Below are positions 31,463 through 36,585 of a stretch of DNA of 64,000 nucleotides, piece after piece. Where the stretch lies: assembly GCF_029714325.1 (NCBI RefSeq), contig NZ_CP121666.1:5208001-5272000 (forward strand), given 5' to 3'. A program made the position numbers and the translations under genes. The stretch comes from Bradyrhizobium sp. CB1717. Lineage in GTDB: Bacteria > Pseudomonadota > Alphaproteobacteria > Rhizobiales > Xanthobacteraceae. The first letter of the stretch is position 1. Each line of letters starts with the position of its first letter. Under the pieces are notes generated by a model. That model was given only the letters and a program-made list of their open reading frames with translations, made no database searches and was not told the origin of the DNA.

Positions 31463-32041
31463 ATGCCATCGCCCGAGGATTTTTCACGGCTGCAATCCGC
31501 GATGAGCCAGGCGGTGAAAGCGCATTGGAGGGCCTTCCTGTTCGAAGGCATCCTGCTCGCCGTGCTCGGCATTGCCGCGCTGATCGTGCCGCCGCTCGCG
31601 AGCCTTGCGACCGCGATCTTTCTCGGCTGGGTGTTCTTGATCAGCGGCATCGGCGGCCTGATCGTGACTTATTGGGCGCGCAGCACGCCGGGCTTCTGGT
31701 GGTCACTGATCTCGGCTGCGCTGGCCTGCCTCGCCGGCATGCTGCTGCTGGCCCGTCCGATGCAGGCCGTGCTGACGTTGACCATCGTGCTCGGCGCCTA
31801 TTTCCTCGCCGAGGGCGTCGCCACAATCATGTACGCACTGGAGCACCGCCGCGAGCTCAACAGCCGCTGGTCGTGGCTCCTGATCTCGGGCCTCGTCGAC
31901 ATCGCGATCTCGTTCATGGTGATCACGGGGCTGCCTAGCTCGGCCGAATGGGCGATCGGCGTCCTCGTCGGTATCAACCTGCTGTTCGGGGGCGCCACCC
32001 TGATCGGCATGGCGCTGGCGGCACGCAACAGCAACACCTGA
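31463..32041 (+). CDS. HdeD-family (DUF308) membrane protein
   Basis: The 192-residue protein has six hydrophobic helices in the DUF308 repeat pattern (WRAFLFEGILLAVLGIAALIVPPLASLATAIFLGWVFLISGIGGL). HdeD is linked to acid resistance in E. coli. The role here is inferred from the family. The start ATG lies 70 bases after the protease gene, on the same strand. Confidence 0.85.
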   Translation: MPSPEDFSRLQSAMSQAVKAHWRAFLFEGILLAVLGIAALIVPPLASLATAIFLGWVFLISGIGGLIVTYWARSTPGFWWSLISAALACLAGMLLLARPMQAVLTLTIVLGAYFLAEGVATIMYALEHRRELNSRWSWLLISGLVDIAISFMVITGLPSSAEWAIGVLVGINLLFGGATLIGMALAARNSNT

Positions 32042-32099
32042 GGGCTCTCGTCGCCCGACAGGCCGATTGGGGGGTGACAAGGCGCCAACGGCACGCTAT

Positions 32100-32189
32100 A
32101 TGGCCTCCATGATCACCGTCGCCACCAGCTATTTTTGGTACTTTAGCTACGACAGCTTGCTGGCGGCAGGAGGATCGCGCTCAATCTAG
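32100..32189 (+). CDS. Aromatic-rich leader peptide of the DAHP synthase gene
   Basis: The 29-codon frame reads MASMITVATSYFWYFSYDSL, then ends LAAGGSRSI. Codons 11-17 are Tyr, Phe, Trp, Tyr, Phe, Ser, Tyr, so six of seven are aromatic. It lies about 85 bases upstream of a DAHP synthase gene, whose product starts synthesis of exactly these amino acids. The control codons fall in the loop of an RNA hairpin. A second ATG at 32109 is also in frame. The ribosome site is weak. Confidence 0.7.
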   Translation: MASMITVATSYFWYFSYDSLLAAGGSRSI

Positions 32190-32237
32190 AATATTGAAGC
32201 AAACGTCCGAACAGCCGCCAGACCTGGCGGCTTTTTT
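32122..32237 (+). promoter_or_regulatory. Candidate aromatic amino-acid attenuator
   Basis: Four segments make mutually exclusive hairpins. Segment 1 (32122-32129, CCACCAGC) pairs with segment 2 (32159-32166, GCTGGCGG) with one mismatch. Segment 2 (32160-32167) pairs over eight bases with segment 3 (32214-32221). Segment 3 (32214-32220) pairs with segment 4 (32225-32231), followed by TTTTTT, a terminator. The aromatic codons (32130-32150) lie inside the 1:2 loop. A ribosome stalled there would cover segment 1, free 2 to hold 3, and prevent termination. Confidence 0.75.
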
Positions 32238-32274
32238 ATTGGCCGGCAGGTTCTAGAACAGACAGGAGCCCGCC

Positions 32275-33360
32275 GTGCTGAGCACGACAGACGATCTTCG
32301 CATCCGCGAATTGAAGGAGCTGAGCACGCCCGATGAGGTGATGCGGGAAGTCCCGCGCACGCTCACGGCGACCCGTGTGGTCATGGCCGCGCGCAACGCC
32401 ATCCATGCCATCCTGACCGGCCAGGACGACCGCCTGCTGGTCGTGGTCGGGCCCTGCTCGGTGCACGATCCCAAGGCCGCGCTTGAATACGCCGAACGTC
32501 TCGCCGCCTTGCGCGAGGACCTCGCCGACCAGCTCGAGATCGTGATGCGGGTCTATTTCGAGAAGCCGCGCACCACCGTCGGCTGGAAGGGCCTGATCAA
32601 CGACCCCGATCTCGACGGCAGCTTCGACATCAACAAGGGCCTGCGGCTGGCGCGCAACGTGCTGTCGGCGGTGAACAATCTCGGCCTGCCCGCCGGCACC
32701 GAATTCCTGGATATGACGACGCCGCAATACATCGCCGACCTTGTGTCCTGGGCCGCGATCGGCGCGCGCACGACCGAGAGCCAGATCCATCGTGAGCTGG
32801 CCTCCGGCCTGTCCTGCCCGGTCGGATTCAAGAACGGCACCGACGGCAATGTGCGGATCGCGGCGGACGCGGTGAAGTCGGCTTCGCACCCGCATCATTT
32901 CATGGCCGTCACAAAACTCGGCCGCTCGGCGATCGCCTCGACCGCCGGAAACGAGGACTGCCACATCATCTTGCGCGGCGGCAGCAAGCCGAACTTTGAC
33001 GCGGCAAGCGTTGCGGCGGCCTGCAACGAGCTGGCGAAATCCGGTGTCGCGCCGCTGGTGATGGTGGATGCGAGCCACGCCAATTCGAGCAAGAAGCCCG
33101 AGAACCAGCCGCTGGTGATGGCGGACATCGCCGGCCAGATCTCCGGCGGCGAGAACCGCATCATGGGCGTGATGATCGAGAGCAATCTCGTCGCCGGCCG
33201 CCAGGACGTGGTTCCGGGCAAGCCGCTCACCTACGGCCAGAGCATTACGGATGGCTGTATCGATTGGGCGACCACCGCAACCGTGCTCGAGCAGCTTGCT
33301 GACGCGGTCGAGATCCGCCGCAACACCCAACGCGCGGGACTGCACGAGCGGTCGGCCTGA
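32275..33360 (+). CDS. aroG: Class I DAHP synthase
   Basis: The 361-residue enzyme is of the AroF/AroG/AroH type, with VVVGPCSVHDP, YFEKPRTTVGWKGLINDP, GTEFLDMTTPQYIADLVSWAAIGARTTESQ and CPVGFKNGTDGN. It condenses phosphoenolpyruvate and erythrose 4-phosphate to DAHP, the first step of the shikimate pathway, and needs a divalent metal. The start is GTG at 32275 behind AGGAG. It is preceded by the leader peptide and attenuator, so expression probably follows supply of charged Tyr, Phe or Trp tRNA. Confidence 0.95.
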   Translation: MLSTTDDLRIRELKELSTPDEVMREVPRTLTATRVVMAARNAIHAILTGQDDRLLVVVGPCSVHDPKAALEYAERLAALREDLADQLEIVMRVYFEKPRTTVGWKGLINDPDLDGSFDINKGLRLARNVLSAVNNLGLPAGTEFLDMTTPQYIADLVSWAAIGARTTESQIHRELASGLSCPVGFKNGTDGNVRIAADAVKSASHPHHFMAVTKLGRSAIASTAGNEDCHIILRGGSKPNFDAASVAAACNELAKSGVAPLVMVDASHANSSKKPENQPLVMADIAGQISGGENRIMGVMIESNLVAGRQDVVPGKPLTYGQSITDGCIDWATTATVLEQLADAVEIRRNTQRAGLHERSA

Positions 33361-33414
33361 GGTAAGGCCAATGCGGGCGGGGCGATGCTGTTCGCGCCCT
33401 GCCCGCTATTGCGA

Positions 33415-33669
33415 TCAACAGCCGCGGCAGATGCTCTTGATCTTCTTGTCGAGCAGAGCGTCTTCCTTGTTCACGGGATTGTTCGGATCGCTCAGGTTCT
33501 TCTCGCTCGGCACATCACTGGCGCGCGGCTGGCGATGACCGACAGGGGCCGGCAACACCGATCCGGAGGACGCGCCGCTTGAGGTCGATCCCTTGGAGCC
33601 GCCGGTCTGTGCAACCGCCGTGCCGCCGAGCAAGACCACGAGCGATGCTGCCAGCATGATCTTCTTCAT
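33415..33669 (-). CDS. Exported hypothetical protein
   Basis: The 84-residue protein has a signal peptide (MKKIMLAASLVVLLGGTAVAQ), a Gly/Ser-rich linker, and a charged C-terminus with two cysteines (KKIKSICRGC). The ATG at 33667-33669 follows AAGGAC. It converges on aroG with a 54-base gap. No family was recognised. Confidence 0.65.
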   Translation of the reverse strand: MKKIMLAASLVVLLGGTAVAQTGGSKGSTSSGASSGSVLPAPVGHRQPRASDVPSEKNLSDPNNPVNKEDALLDKKIKSICRGC

Positions 33670-33712
33670 GTCCTTATCCTCCGTTCTCAACGGGCGCTCC
33701 CACCATCACCGC

Positions 33713-34807
33713 TCAGGTCTCGGGCGGATACAGATGAACCTCGCCGCAATAATCGACGATACGATAACGTGTTTCGGCCTCCGCATCACGTGCGTCGGGT
33801 GCGGTATTTTGTGCCGCCAACACGTAATTCGGCCCGACCGGCGACTTGCCGGCGCCGCCGGGAATATCGATGACATAGTCAGGCTGACACAGTCCTGACA
33901 CCCGCCCGCGCAGCTGCCGCATCAATTCCTGCCCCTCCGCGAGCGTCGTTCGCAGATGCGCTGTGCCCGGCGCCAGATCGCCGTGATGCAGATAATAGGG
34001 CTTGATCCGGCATTCGACGAAAGCTCGCATCAAATCCGACAAAGCGGCCACATTGTCGTTGACGCCGCGCAAGAGCACGGACTGGCTGATCATGGGAATT
34101 CCGGCATCGACGAGCCGTCCGCAGGCAGCGCGGGCACCTTCCGTGAGCTCGCGCGCATGATTGGCATGCAGGGCAACCCAGGTCGTCGCGCCGGGAACCT
34201 TCAGCGCGGCGACCATCTCGTCGCTGATGCGCGCGGGATCGGCGACCGGCACGCGGGTGTGAAGGCGGATGATCTTGACGTGATCGATTGCAGCGAGATC
34301 GGCCATGATCTCGCTCATGCGACGCGGCGACAGCATCAAGGGATCGCCGCCGGTCAGGATCACTTCCCAGATCTCGCTATGCGCGCGGATATAGTCGATC
34401 GCCGCACGATACGCGTCTTCCGACAGCGCATTCTCCTTGCCGGGCCCAACCATCTCGCGGCGGAAGCAGAACCGACAATAGACCGCGCAGACGTGAACCA
34501 GCTTGAACAGCACGCGATCGGGATAGCGATGCACGATGCCGGGAACCGGCGAATGCGGGTGATCGCCGATCGGATCGGCGTTCTCCCCGGGTCGCATCTC
34601 CAGTTCCGCGGCGGTCGGAACGAATTGCCGCGCGATGGGATCGTCGGGATCGGAGGTGTCGATCAGCTCCACCAGCGCCGGCGTGATCGCAACCGCATAG
34701 CGCGCGGCGACGCGCTCGAGCGCGGGCAGCGCCGCGGCGGGAGCAAGCTGCTCGGCCACGAACTCGGCTGGCTCGCGCAGGGTGCGTGCAAGGTTGGTCT
34801 TCGTCAT
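33713..34807 (-). CDS. epmB: EF-P beta-lysylation protein EpmB (lysine 2,3-aminomutase family)
   Basis: The 364-residue radical SAM enzyme has the cluster motif CAVYCRFC (Cys about 107, 111 and 114) and the PLP-lysine segment GGAGKSPVGPNY. It converts (S)-alpha-lysine to (R)-beta-lysine for attachment to EF-P. Length matches EpmB rather than the longer KamA of lysine fermentation. Its start overlaps the epmA stop by four bases, and the two face the efp gene, which confirms the role. Confidence 0.92.
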   Translation of the reverse strand: MTKTNLARTLREPAEFVAEQLAPAAALPALERVAARYAVAITPALVELIDTSDPDDPIARQFVPTAAELEMRPGENADPIGDHPHSPVPGIVHRYPDRVLFKLVHVCAVYCRFCFRREMVGPGKENALSEDAYRAAIDYIRAHSEIWEVILTGGDPLMLSPRRMSEIMADLAAIDHVKIIRLHTRVPVADPARISDEMVAALKVPGATTWVALHANHARELTEGARAACGRLVDAGIPMISQSVLLRGVNDNVAALSDLMRAFVECRIKPYYLHHGDLAPGTAHLRTTLAEGQELMRQLRGRVSGLCQPDYVIDIPGGAGKSPVGPNYVLAAQNTAPDARDAEAETRYRIVDYCGEVHLYPPET

Positions 34808-35856
34808 GTCTCACCCGCAGGCGGCGTCCACACCACCTGATCAATCCGTGTTGCGCCGCTCGCCAGCATCACCAGCCGATCGAAGCCGAGTGCGACACCG
34901 CTGGCTTCGGGCATCTCGGCGACTGCGGCGAGAAAGTCCTCGTCGAGCGGATAGGCCTCGCCGTAACGGCGCTGCTTCTCGGCCATCGAGTCCGTGAAGC
35001 GGCGGCGCTGCTCCTCGGCGTCGGTCAGCTCGCCAAAACCGTTGGCGAGCTCGACGCCGCAGGCATAGACCTCGAACCGCTCGGCGACCCTGGGATCGTC
35101 CGCCTTCACCCGCGCCAGCGCCGCCTCTGGAGATGGGTATTCGAACAGGATGGTCAAACACCCCTGCCCCAGATGGGGCTCGACGTGCTCGACCAGGACC
35201 TTGCTGAAGATGTCCGACCAGGTGTCGTCCCCGGCGACGCGGACCTTGCCGCCGGCCATTTGGGCGAGCGCGGCACGATTACCCTCGCCGCCCGAGATTG
35301 TCGACAACAGATCGATGCCTGCGAACCGCGCGAAAGCAGCCGCGACCGTCAGAAGCTCCGGCTCGGCGAAGGGATCGGTGGTCCGGCCACGGAAGGAGAA
35401 CGTCCCGATGCCAGTCTCCTGCGCCGCCCGGGCGATGATGGCGACGGTATCGGCAATGATGGCGTCGTAGGGCTCGCCGGCCCGGTACCATTCCAGCATG
35501 GTAAATTCGGGCAGATGCAGGTCGCCGCGCTCGCGGTCGCGGAACACCCGGGCGAACTCGAAGATTCGGGGCTCTCCGGCCGCCAGCAGCTTCTTGCAGG
35601 CGAATTCGGGCGAGGTCCGCAAGTATCGGCTGGCCCGGCTGCCGTCGGGCCGCATGATCTCGGTCCGGGGGGCGTGCAGATGGGTCTCATTGCCCGGGGA
35701 AACCTGGAGGACCGAGGTTTCGACCTCGATAAACCCCTGTTCGGCGAAAAAGCCCCGTAGAGCCCCGGTTACGGCGCCCCTGGCCTGGAGGAACGGCCGC
35801 CGGTCGAGGTGCCGCAAGGGCGACCAGAACGGCGAGATCGGCTTGTCCCCAGCCAT
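34804..35856 (-). CDS. epmA: EF-P--(R)-beta-lysine ligase EpmA
   Basis: The 350-residue protein resembles the catalytic core of class II lysyl-tRNA synthetase without the anticodon domain: FFAEQGFIEVETSVLQVSPGNETHLHA, ASRYLRTSPEFACKKLLA, RVFRDRERGDLHLPEFTMLEWYRAG and ASGVALGFDRLVML. It activates beta-lysine and transfers it to EF-P. The four-base overlap with epmB indicates one transcript, divergent from efp. Confidence 0.93.
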   Translation of the reverse strand: MAGDKPISPFWSPLRHLDRRPFLQARGAVTGALRGFFAEQGFIEVETSVLQVSPGNETHLHAPRTEIMRPDGSRASRYLRTSPEFACKKLLAAGEPRIFEFARVFRDRERGDLHLPEFTMLEWYRAGEPYDAIIADTVAIIARAAQETGIGTFSFRGRTTDPFAEPELLTVAAAFARFAGIDLLSTISGGEGNRAALAQMAGGKVRVAGDDTWSDIFSKVLVEHVEPHLGQGCLTILFEYPSPEAALARVKADDPRVAERFEVYACGVELANGFGELTDAEEQRRRFTDSMAEKQRRYGEAYPLDEDFLAAVAEMPEASGVALGFDRLVMLASGATRIDQVVWTPPAGET

Positions 35857-36018: not shown

Positions 36019-36585
36019 TTGAGAGTCATCGCCAGTTCTATTCGCAAGGGCAACGTGATCGAGCAAGACGGCAAGCTTTATGTCGTCGTGAGCGCCGAGA
36101 ACATCCATCCCGGCAAAGGCACCCCGGTCAGCCAGATCGAAATGCGCCGAATCTCGGACGGGGTAAAGATCTCCGAGCGCTACAAGACCACCGACCAGGT
36201 CGAAAAGGCCACGATCGAAGAGCGCAACTACACCTTCTTGTACGAAGATGGCGACGGCTTCCACTTCATGAACCCCGAGACCTACGACCAGCTCCAGGTC
36301 TCCAAGGACGTCGTCGGCGACGCGGCCGCCTATCTTCAGCCAGACATGACCGTCAAGCTGTCGACCCACGACGTCAACGTGGTGTCGATGGCGCTGCCGC
36401 AGCGCGTGACGCTGGAAGTGGTCGAAACCGAGCCCGTGACCAAGGGGCAGACCGCCTCCTCCTCCTACAAGCCCGCGGTGCTGTCCAACGGCGTGCGCAC
36501 CACCGTGCCGCCGCACATCTCGGTCGGCACCCGCATTGTGGTGATGACCGAAGACGGCTCCTACTCCGAGCGCGCCAAGGACTAA
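36019..36585 (+). CDS. efp: Elongation factor P
   Basis: The 188-residue protein has three domains: the KOW-like N-domain, the central OB fold and the C-terminal OB fold. The loop HPGKGTP holds the lysine (K33) that would be beta-lysylated, matching K34 in E. coli. It relieves ribosome stalling at polyproline. The start is TTG at 36019 with AGGAA upstream; the family N-terminus [12 protein letters not shown] starts exactly there. epmA and epmB lie divergently upstream. Confidence 0.95.

Follow-up and report, generated by a model that had tools for sequence, protein, structure and literature searches.

A predicted attenuator with Phe, Tyr and Trp codons upstream of the class I DAHP synthase gene aroG in Bradyrhizobium

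Can one short codon run report the shortage of any of three aromatic amino acids to the entry of the shikimate pathway? The question is raised by the region upstream of aroG in Bradyrhizobium sp. CB1717, analyzed here within a 64,000-nt stretch of DNA (the window) that lies in one 9.23 Mb contig (5208001-5272000). Directly before aroG, an aromatic leader, a terminator and a competing antiterminator were confirmed to be real. It is highly probable that these elements form a ribosome-mediated transcription attenuator of aroG, acting at the shikimate entry as an OR gate that responds to a lack of Phe, Tyr or Trp. This interpretation, already put forward in a sequence-only reading of the locus, is supported by the anatomy of the region, by conservation of the aromatic codons in all 71 usable loci of the genus, by covariation of the antiterminator (2:3) and terminator (3:4) stems, and by the computed switching of the window RNA. 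The features expected of such a system were found together: an ORF of predicted translation with a conserved run of end-product codons, an intrinsic terminator, and a 2:3 pairing that excludes it.

The aroG locus and its leader

The aroG gene (32275..33360, plus strand) starts with GTG and encodes a 361-aa DAHP synthase of class I (AroFGH type), as judged by TIGR00034 (531.9 bits, cut-off 173.2); against the narrower AroG model NF006723 the product reached 554.3 bits, just under the cut-off of 568. AGGAG at 32264..32268 on the same strand is its likely Shine-Dalgarno site. This is the sole class I DAHP synthase match in the genome, and one class II enzyme is encoded elsewhere; at the class II DAHP synthase locus (L041), no short ORF with at least three F/Y/W residues was detected in about 600 nt upstream. 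Among the matches listed (best 80 of 591), the five nearest named aroG loci all belong to Bradyrhizobium, with 94-98% protein identity. The neighborhood of aroG also contains genes for EF-P modification at 33713-34807 (minus strand), 34804-35856 (minus) and 36019-36585 (plus); the products of this cluster are a lysine 2,3-aminomutase-like protein (TIGR03822; the EpmB model scored under its cut-off), EpmA (TIGR00462) and elongation factor P (TIGR00038).

The leader ORF (MITVATSYFWYFSYDSLLAAGGSRSI, followed by a stop) runs from the ATG at 32109 to 32189 on the plus strand and comprises 26 codons. Its codons 8-14, at 32130..32150 on the same strand, spell Tyr-Phe-Trp-Tyr-Phe-Ser-Tyr, so that the aromatic run reported before the class I DAHP synthase is indeed present. 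No other seven-residue stretch with at least six F/Y/W exists in any of the six reading frames of the 64 kb window, and 20 dinucleotide shuffles of the window contained none. The sequence-only reading had proposed a 29-codon leader from the ATG at 32100 to the TAG at 32189, in which the run occupies codons 11-17. The ORF and the run can be read directly, but the start codon is most likely the ATG at 32109: an in-frame ATG at exactly -9 (corresponding to 32100) is kept in only 5 of 69 distinct upstream sequences of the genus and falls inside a putative -10 box, and 32100 was rejected as the leader start.

The putative promoter was recognized by its conservation in the genus. It consists of a -35 element GTGACA (32074..32079) and a -10 element TATATG (32097..32102), both on the plus strand, the latter overlapping the first ATG. 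TGACA precedes the leader in all 69 distinct genus sequences, 29-32 nt before the leader ATG in 68 of them, and the first four positions of the -10 box are T in 69, A in 69, T in 65 and A in 64. A simple promoter scan, which applies its own rule, returned no promoter in 31700-33700. The conserved elements fit GTGACA-N17-TATATG and a transcript start at or next to A32109; the leader ORF would thus begin at or very near the 5' end of the transcript, and its mRNA is probably leaderless.

Four RNA segments were delineated on the plus strand. Segment 1 (32122..32129), defined by the computed fold and part of a longer 1:2 fold, pairs with segment 2 (32159..32167), a near copy of segment 4 (32225..32232), the 3' arm of the terminator. 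Segment 3 (32213..32221) is common to antiterminator and terminator, and the U run TTTTTT lies at 32232..32237. Antiterminator 2:3 joins 32160-32167 with 32214-32221 by Watson-Crick pairs at all eight positions; terminator 3:4 (32213-32220 with 32225-32232) has eight pairs and a 4-nt loop, GACC, before the TTTTTT, and was independently found by a terminator scan. Both pairings and the U run thus lie where they had been placed before. The pairing 1:2 (32122-32129 with 32159-32166), also proposed earlier, folds in the window with seven of eight pairs and one A-C mismatch, but showed no covariation in a wide alignment. Pairing of GGAT (32172-32175) with GTCC (32205-32208) would extend the antiterminator and seemed regular on visual inspection; it gave no gain over shuffles, with none of 37 representatives at p <= 0.05, and was rejected.

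Conservation, covariation and distribution

Class I aroG loci were collected by genome searches, from GTDB contigs (best 80 of 591 confirmed matches) and from fetched stretches, which yielded 150 usable upstream regions, many from close relatives; L072 and L128, where the contig end lay too near the gene, were left out. A leader was scored as an ATG-started ORF of 10-70 codons within 330 nt, with at least four F/Y/W in eight residues. By this rule 134 of the 150 regions have a leader, whereas the reverse strands gave 3 of 150 and dinucleotide shuffles 44 of 1500; with at least six F/Y/W in eight, the counts were 111 of 150, 0 and 1 of 1500. The 16 regions lacking such a leader include those of Photobacterium, Enterovibrio, Pantoea, Chitinimonas, Thauera and Methylotenera. 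All 71 usable loci of the genus Bradyrhizobium carry a leader with Phe, Tyr and Trp codons; they represent 69 distinct upstream stretches. The loci collected are not all independent; L019 and L042, for example, appear to be the same contig. Outside the genus, leaders were present at 63 of 79 loci, nearly all proteobacterial, and 42 of the 63 contain all three aromatic residues. A simple finder placed an intrinsic terminator at 130 of the 134 leader loci and none at L056, L066, L088 and L096; a looser pattern located it for L056 and L088 in the alignment described below, and none for L066. Candidate aroG leaders are much more widespread than is visible from the window alone.

Covariation was assessed in an alignment of 61 leader sequences (A1) against 500 shuffles, which do not remove relatedness. 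In terminator 3:4, 97.7% of cells are paired and 32 show both-side changes; the corresponding values for antiterminator 2:3 are 86.2% and 23. For both stems, neither the covariation score nor the percentage paired was matched in any of the 500 shuffles. Pairs with a both-side change numbered three for 3:4 (5 of 500 shuffles as high) and five for 2:3 (2 of 500), and further pair types were matched in 30 and 12 of 500 shuffles, respectively. Slid controls were paired in 15-63% (3:4) and 17-53% (2:3) of cells. The signal is concentrated, with 26 of the 32 both-side cells of 3:4 coming from one pair, and 12 of the 23 of 2:3 from a pair that does not form in 30 of the 61 sequences. The covariation expected of the stems thus holds for 2:3 and 3:4 but not for 1:2, for which none was found in A1 (57.9% paired cells, a level reached by 452 of 500 shuffles). 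In per-sequence duplex tests against shuffles (p <= 0.05), 2:3 was favored in 25 of 37 representatives and 1:2 in nine (L001, L131, L049, L050, L009, L051, L054, L082, L111), the Bradyrhizobium and Mesorhizobium representatives being among the nine.

The core of segment 2 was located in 128 of the 134 leaders; codon phase 1 accounts for 117 of these, phase 0 for eight and phase 2 for three. Its bases encode another peptide in three Devosia-type loci (L051, L052, L054), L011 and L061. Since the core is read in different codon phases, it is the nucleotides, i.e., the RNA, that are kept rather than a peptide tail.

In the Xanthomonas group (L077, L081, L084, L095), the leader stop codon is part of a small but stable hairpin (CTGAAG-GAAA-CTTCAG or a variant of it) within the antiterminator loop. 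A stop-codon hairpin reached z <= -2 in eight of 50 loci (L006, L008, L048, L050, L077, L081, L084, L103), with a value of -1.0 in the window. In the Xanthomonas group it might be a pause or spacing element.

To survey the phylum, a covariance model of A1 (R1; eight pairs, largely a sequence model) was searched against 398 genomes with strict filters and eight candidates scored per genome. The window, one of the 61 model sequences, matched at 32109-32239 with 103.2 bits, and the next best match in its own genome had an E of 0.015. The search returned 51 matches at E <= 1e-5, of which 48 precede a class I DAHP synthase gene: all of the first 30, and 18 of the next 21. The other three stand before pheA (two) and pheS (one), as named by NCBIfam; both pheA and pheST are described as attenuator targets in PMC11802643. 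Of eight further matches, only the one at E 1.1e-5 precedes a class I DAHP synthase gene; the remaining seven, at E 4.6e-5 to 2e-4, stand elsewhere. Class I DAHP synthases were detected in 225 of the 398 genomes; in all 23 alphaproteobacterial genomes among them, and in 25 of the 202 others, the gene is preceded by an R1 match (E <= 1e-5), while at this threshold none was found there in the remaining 177 non-alphaproteobacterial genomes.

Within the genus sample, a class I aroG match was obtained in 227 of 242 genomes (eight candidates scored per genome). Ten of the 15 genomes that gave no match are listed as at least 99% complete, which makes loss or replacement of aroG likely in some of them. 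In the family sample, class I aroG was found in 11 of 119 genomes and four of 47 genera. This patchy occurrence, with the leader attached where examined, suggests that gene and leader may have been transferred together. A rapid phylogeny of 105 DAHP synthases, rooted at the midpoint, with SH-aLRT as its only support measure and with several long branches, groups the enzymes of Alphaproteobacteria with those of Xanthomonas, Stenotrophomonas, Dyella and Rhodanobacter in a single set of 38 rows (98*). Leader presence requires six changes on this tree; the corresponding count of three for the alphaproteobacterial label is unreliable, as L080 (Rhodopila, an alphaproteobacterium) was scored as 'other'.

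Differently built aroG leaders, e.g., MQARSAFYFYFWFSVPGGREAIA, were observed in one family outside Alphaproteobacteria (L201-L206, L208, L210-L212, L215), the DAHP synthases of which are divergent (58-62% identity); they possibly represent a separate leader subtype. L207 has a Phe-rich leader in front of a gene, incomplete at the stretch end, for a chorismate mutase/prephenate dehydratase-like product that continues into a B. subtilis-type DAHP synthase domain. PMC1173090 notes a comparable fusion in Shewanella, one part of which is a pseudogene.

Predicted switching and alternative explanations

The transcription start, leader translation, ribosome stalling and response to amino acid supply are the parts of the attenuator reading that we infer. 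Transcription would start at or beside the ATG at 32109, and the 26-codon leader would be translated, probably as a leaderless message. If the charged tRNA for Phe, Tyr or Trp runs low, the ribosome would stall on codons 8-14 and cover segment 1; segment 2, left free, would pair with the emerging segment 3, and RNA polymerase would read into aroG. When all three tRNAs are charged, the ribosome would pass over segment 2 towards the stop codon, allowing 3:4 to pair and transcription to terminate at the U run. Termination would also be expected with no ribosome at all, through the 1:2 fold together with 3:4. As any single aromatic shortage should suffice, the leader would apply OR logic to entry into the shikimate pathway.

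Switching was computed by folding only the RNA downstream of the ribosome, with the ribosome assumed to cover 12 nt counted from the A site. For the window RNA without a ribosome, the equilibrium probability of 3:4 was 0.94. With the ribosome on aromatic codons 8-12 or 14, the probability of 2:3 rose to 0.93-0.99, and it was 0.80 on the Ser codon 13. From codon 15 onward the probability of 3:4 was 1.0, which puts the downstream switching boundary right after the last aromatic codon. With the ribosome on codons 2-7, 2:3 also reached 0.80-0.99; the folding model has no upstream boundary, so specificity must come from the position at which the ribosome stalls.

Pairing was also computed for 55 distinct leaders of the genus, L123, L129, L130 and L132 being left out because the fixed motif was not located. 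Terminator 3:4 exceeded a probability of 0.5 without a ribosome in all 55, and 2:3 did so with the ribosome at the Trp codon in 36. Across a wider set of 51 loci, which includes the window and omits L086 (where the finder chose a poor hairpin), full switching was seen in six; elsewhere the terminator was mostly favored at equilibrium. Full equilibrium switching was accordingly rejected as a general property, and according to the folding model the antiterminator outside the fully switching loci would mostly require that 2:3 forms before segment 4 is made. At that stage, 2:3 was formed in all 55 genus RNAs with a stalled ribosome and in 38 of the same 55 without one, the window RNA among the 38. 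Because 2:3 is already present in these free RNAs, 1:2 alone would not pre-empt it, and timing must matter; in this model, termination is probably allowed by a moving ribosome that masks segment 2 rather than by 1:2 alone.

The identity of the effective inputs leaves room for a narrower version of the mechanism, in which attenuation takes place but the cell responds to just one or two of the aromatic amino acids, the remaining codons being inert because their tRNA never becomes limiting. This version would fit the 21 of 63 leaders outside the genus that have no Trp in the run, including those of the Massilia/Rugamonas/Janthinobacterium group. We consider it possible but rather unlikely: Trp, Phe and Tyr are all kept in 71 of 71 loci of the genus, and a stall at each aromatic codon is predicted by the folding model to antiterminate.

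An action mainly in trans, with the terminated leader RNA (about 129 nt) or the peptide working in the manner of rnTrpL/peTrpL and attenuation of aroG being secondary, has a precedent in S. meliloti trpL, and a conserved role of the peptide in B. japonicum is reported in PMC7298713. In the aroG leaders, though, the peptide tail follows the RNA segment, the nucleotides of which are kept across different reading frames, and the element adjoins a class I DAHP synthase gene in 48 of the 51 strong R1 matches; no result of the present analysis suggests a trans role, and we judge the trans explanation improbable.

It is still less probable that a protein or a metabolite binds the leader (a riboswitch or TRAP-like system) and switches the same hairpins. 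Such a system would agree with the two mutually exclusive folds computed for the window leader RNA; the conserved part, though, is an aromatic codon run with interchanging members (YF, FY, YY or NF before WYF). Rfam 15 at the gathering threshold detected no leader family in the window, where it reported two tRNAs only, and had no match in 20 related loci. Weak matches in the window to Phe_leader (19.7 bits), RNAI (19) and BjrC1505 (15.7 and 13.7 bits, both strands) scored far under the cut-offs and were put down to chance.

Finally, the hairpin could merely terminate an upstream hdeD-like ORF (NCBIfam 64.2, model cut-off 189), which ends at 32041, 171 nt before it, with the small ORF being unrelated, but this is scarcely credible given the conserved promoter-like element in between (69 of 69 genus sequences), the recurrence of the leader before aroG across many lineages and the covariation of segment 2 with segment 3.

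Comparison with known attenuators

The attenuator reading places the aroG leader in the same mechanism class as the rhizobial trpL of trpE(G), the S. meliloti RNA of which (rnTrpL) is described in PMC7298713 as starting at the ATG. Unlike the aroG leader, trpL as presented there has Trp codons only and controls the Trp branch instead of the pathway entry. The genome of strain CB1717 also contains a trpE(G)-like gene preceded by a Trp-only leader, read by eye as MSIAVRPARLWWRTS (L156:1083-1130, near contig position 2265482), which is close to the B. japonicum peTrpL sequence given in PMC7298713. The pheL and pheM leaders (Rfam Phe_leader) likewise combine a Phe-rich leader with a terminator, and R1 detects two pheA leaders and one pheS leader; they differ in their target genes, and the window scores 19.7 bits against the Phe_leader cut-off of 55. 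The ilv leaders, which sense Leu, Val and Ile, resemble the aroG leader in carrying codons for several end products in one leader, but belong to the branched-chain pathway.

In E. coli, the DAHP synthase isoenzymes are controlled by repressors, according to PMC11802643 and PMC5343134, and the latter states that TyrR and TrpR are confined to gammaproteobacterial groups. The chances seem to us evenly balanced that the aroG leaders constitute an undescribed, Proteobacteria-wide attenuator family, traveling with class I aroG as a self-contained cassette, acting as a three-input OR gate much of which lies outside the TyrR/TrpR groups, and having its inputs edited by codon swaps. None of the Massilia/Rugamonas/Janthinobacterium leaders examined, for instance, has a Trp codon in the run. 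Attenuation of aroG would let a single cis element adjust the first committed aromatic step in Bradyrhizobium, Mesorhizobium and relatives of Burkholderia and Xanthomonas; the aroG leader would also be a portable sensor of aromatic starvation and a candidate new RNA family. It becomes testable whether three amino acids are read by one codon run with OR logic, and whether inputs are edited by codon swapping.

The sequence-only reading knew of no DAHP synthase attenuator sensing all three aromatic amino acids. No three-aromatic leader attenuator before a proteobacterial class I aroG was found in searches of an open-access full-text library, but attenuation of DAHP synthase genes itself has precedents; we put the chance that a proteobacterial aroG leader was mentioned earlier, in Vitreschak 2004, Neshat 2014 or the Merino database, at near one in four. 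Putative attenuators from the Merino database precede aroAIalpha_Y-tyrA in two Vibrio species (PMC1173090, Table 7); as with aroG, a predicted attenuator stands before a class I alpha DAHP synthase gene, which there forms an operon with tyrA. An older attenuation hypothesis for E. coli aroF is cited in PMC8632094. The same paper describes the uORFC-13-1 motif, a computational candidate that shares with the aroG leader a uORF and a terminator before a DAHP synthase gene (aroF); it has Phe codon(s) and an extra substructure and is reported there from Acholeplasma and environmental sequences only (24 representatives). A further likeness is to the C. glutamicum aroR leader before aroF, an aromatic leader peptide (Phe-Tyr-Phe) upstream of a DAHP synthase gene with ribosome-mediated attenuation, which is predicted here; in C. 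glutamicum it responds to Phe and not to Tyr (PMC11802643, on Neshat et al. 2014). Compared by that description, the aroG leader differs in belonging to a distant phylum and in having a Trp codon, as do all 71 loci of the genus. DAHP synthase attenuation as such is thus already known in Corynebacterium, and the unusual feature of the aroG leader would be its three aromatic inputs at the entry of the pathway.
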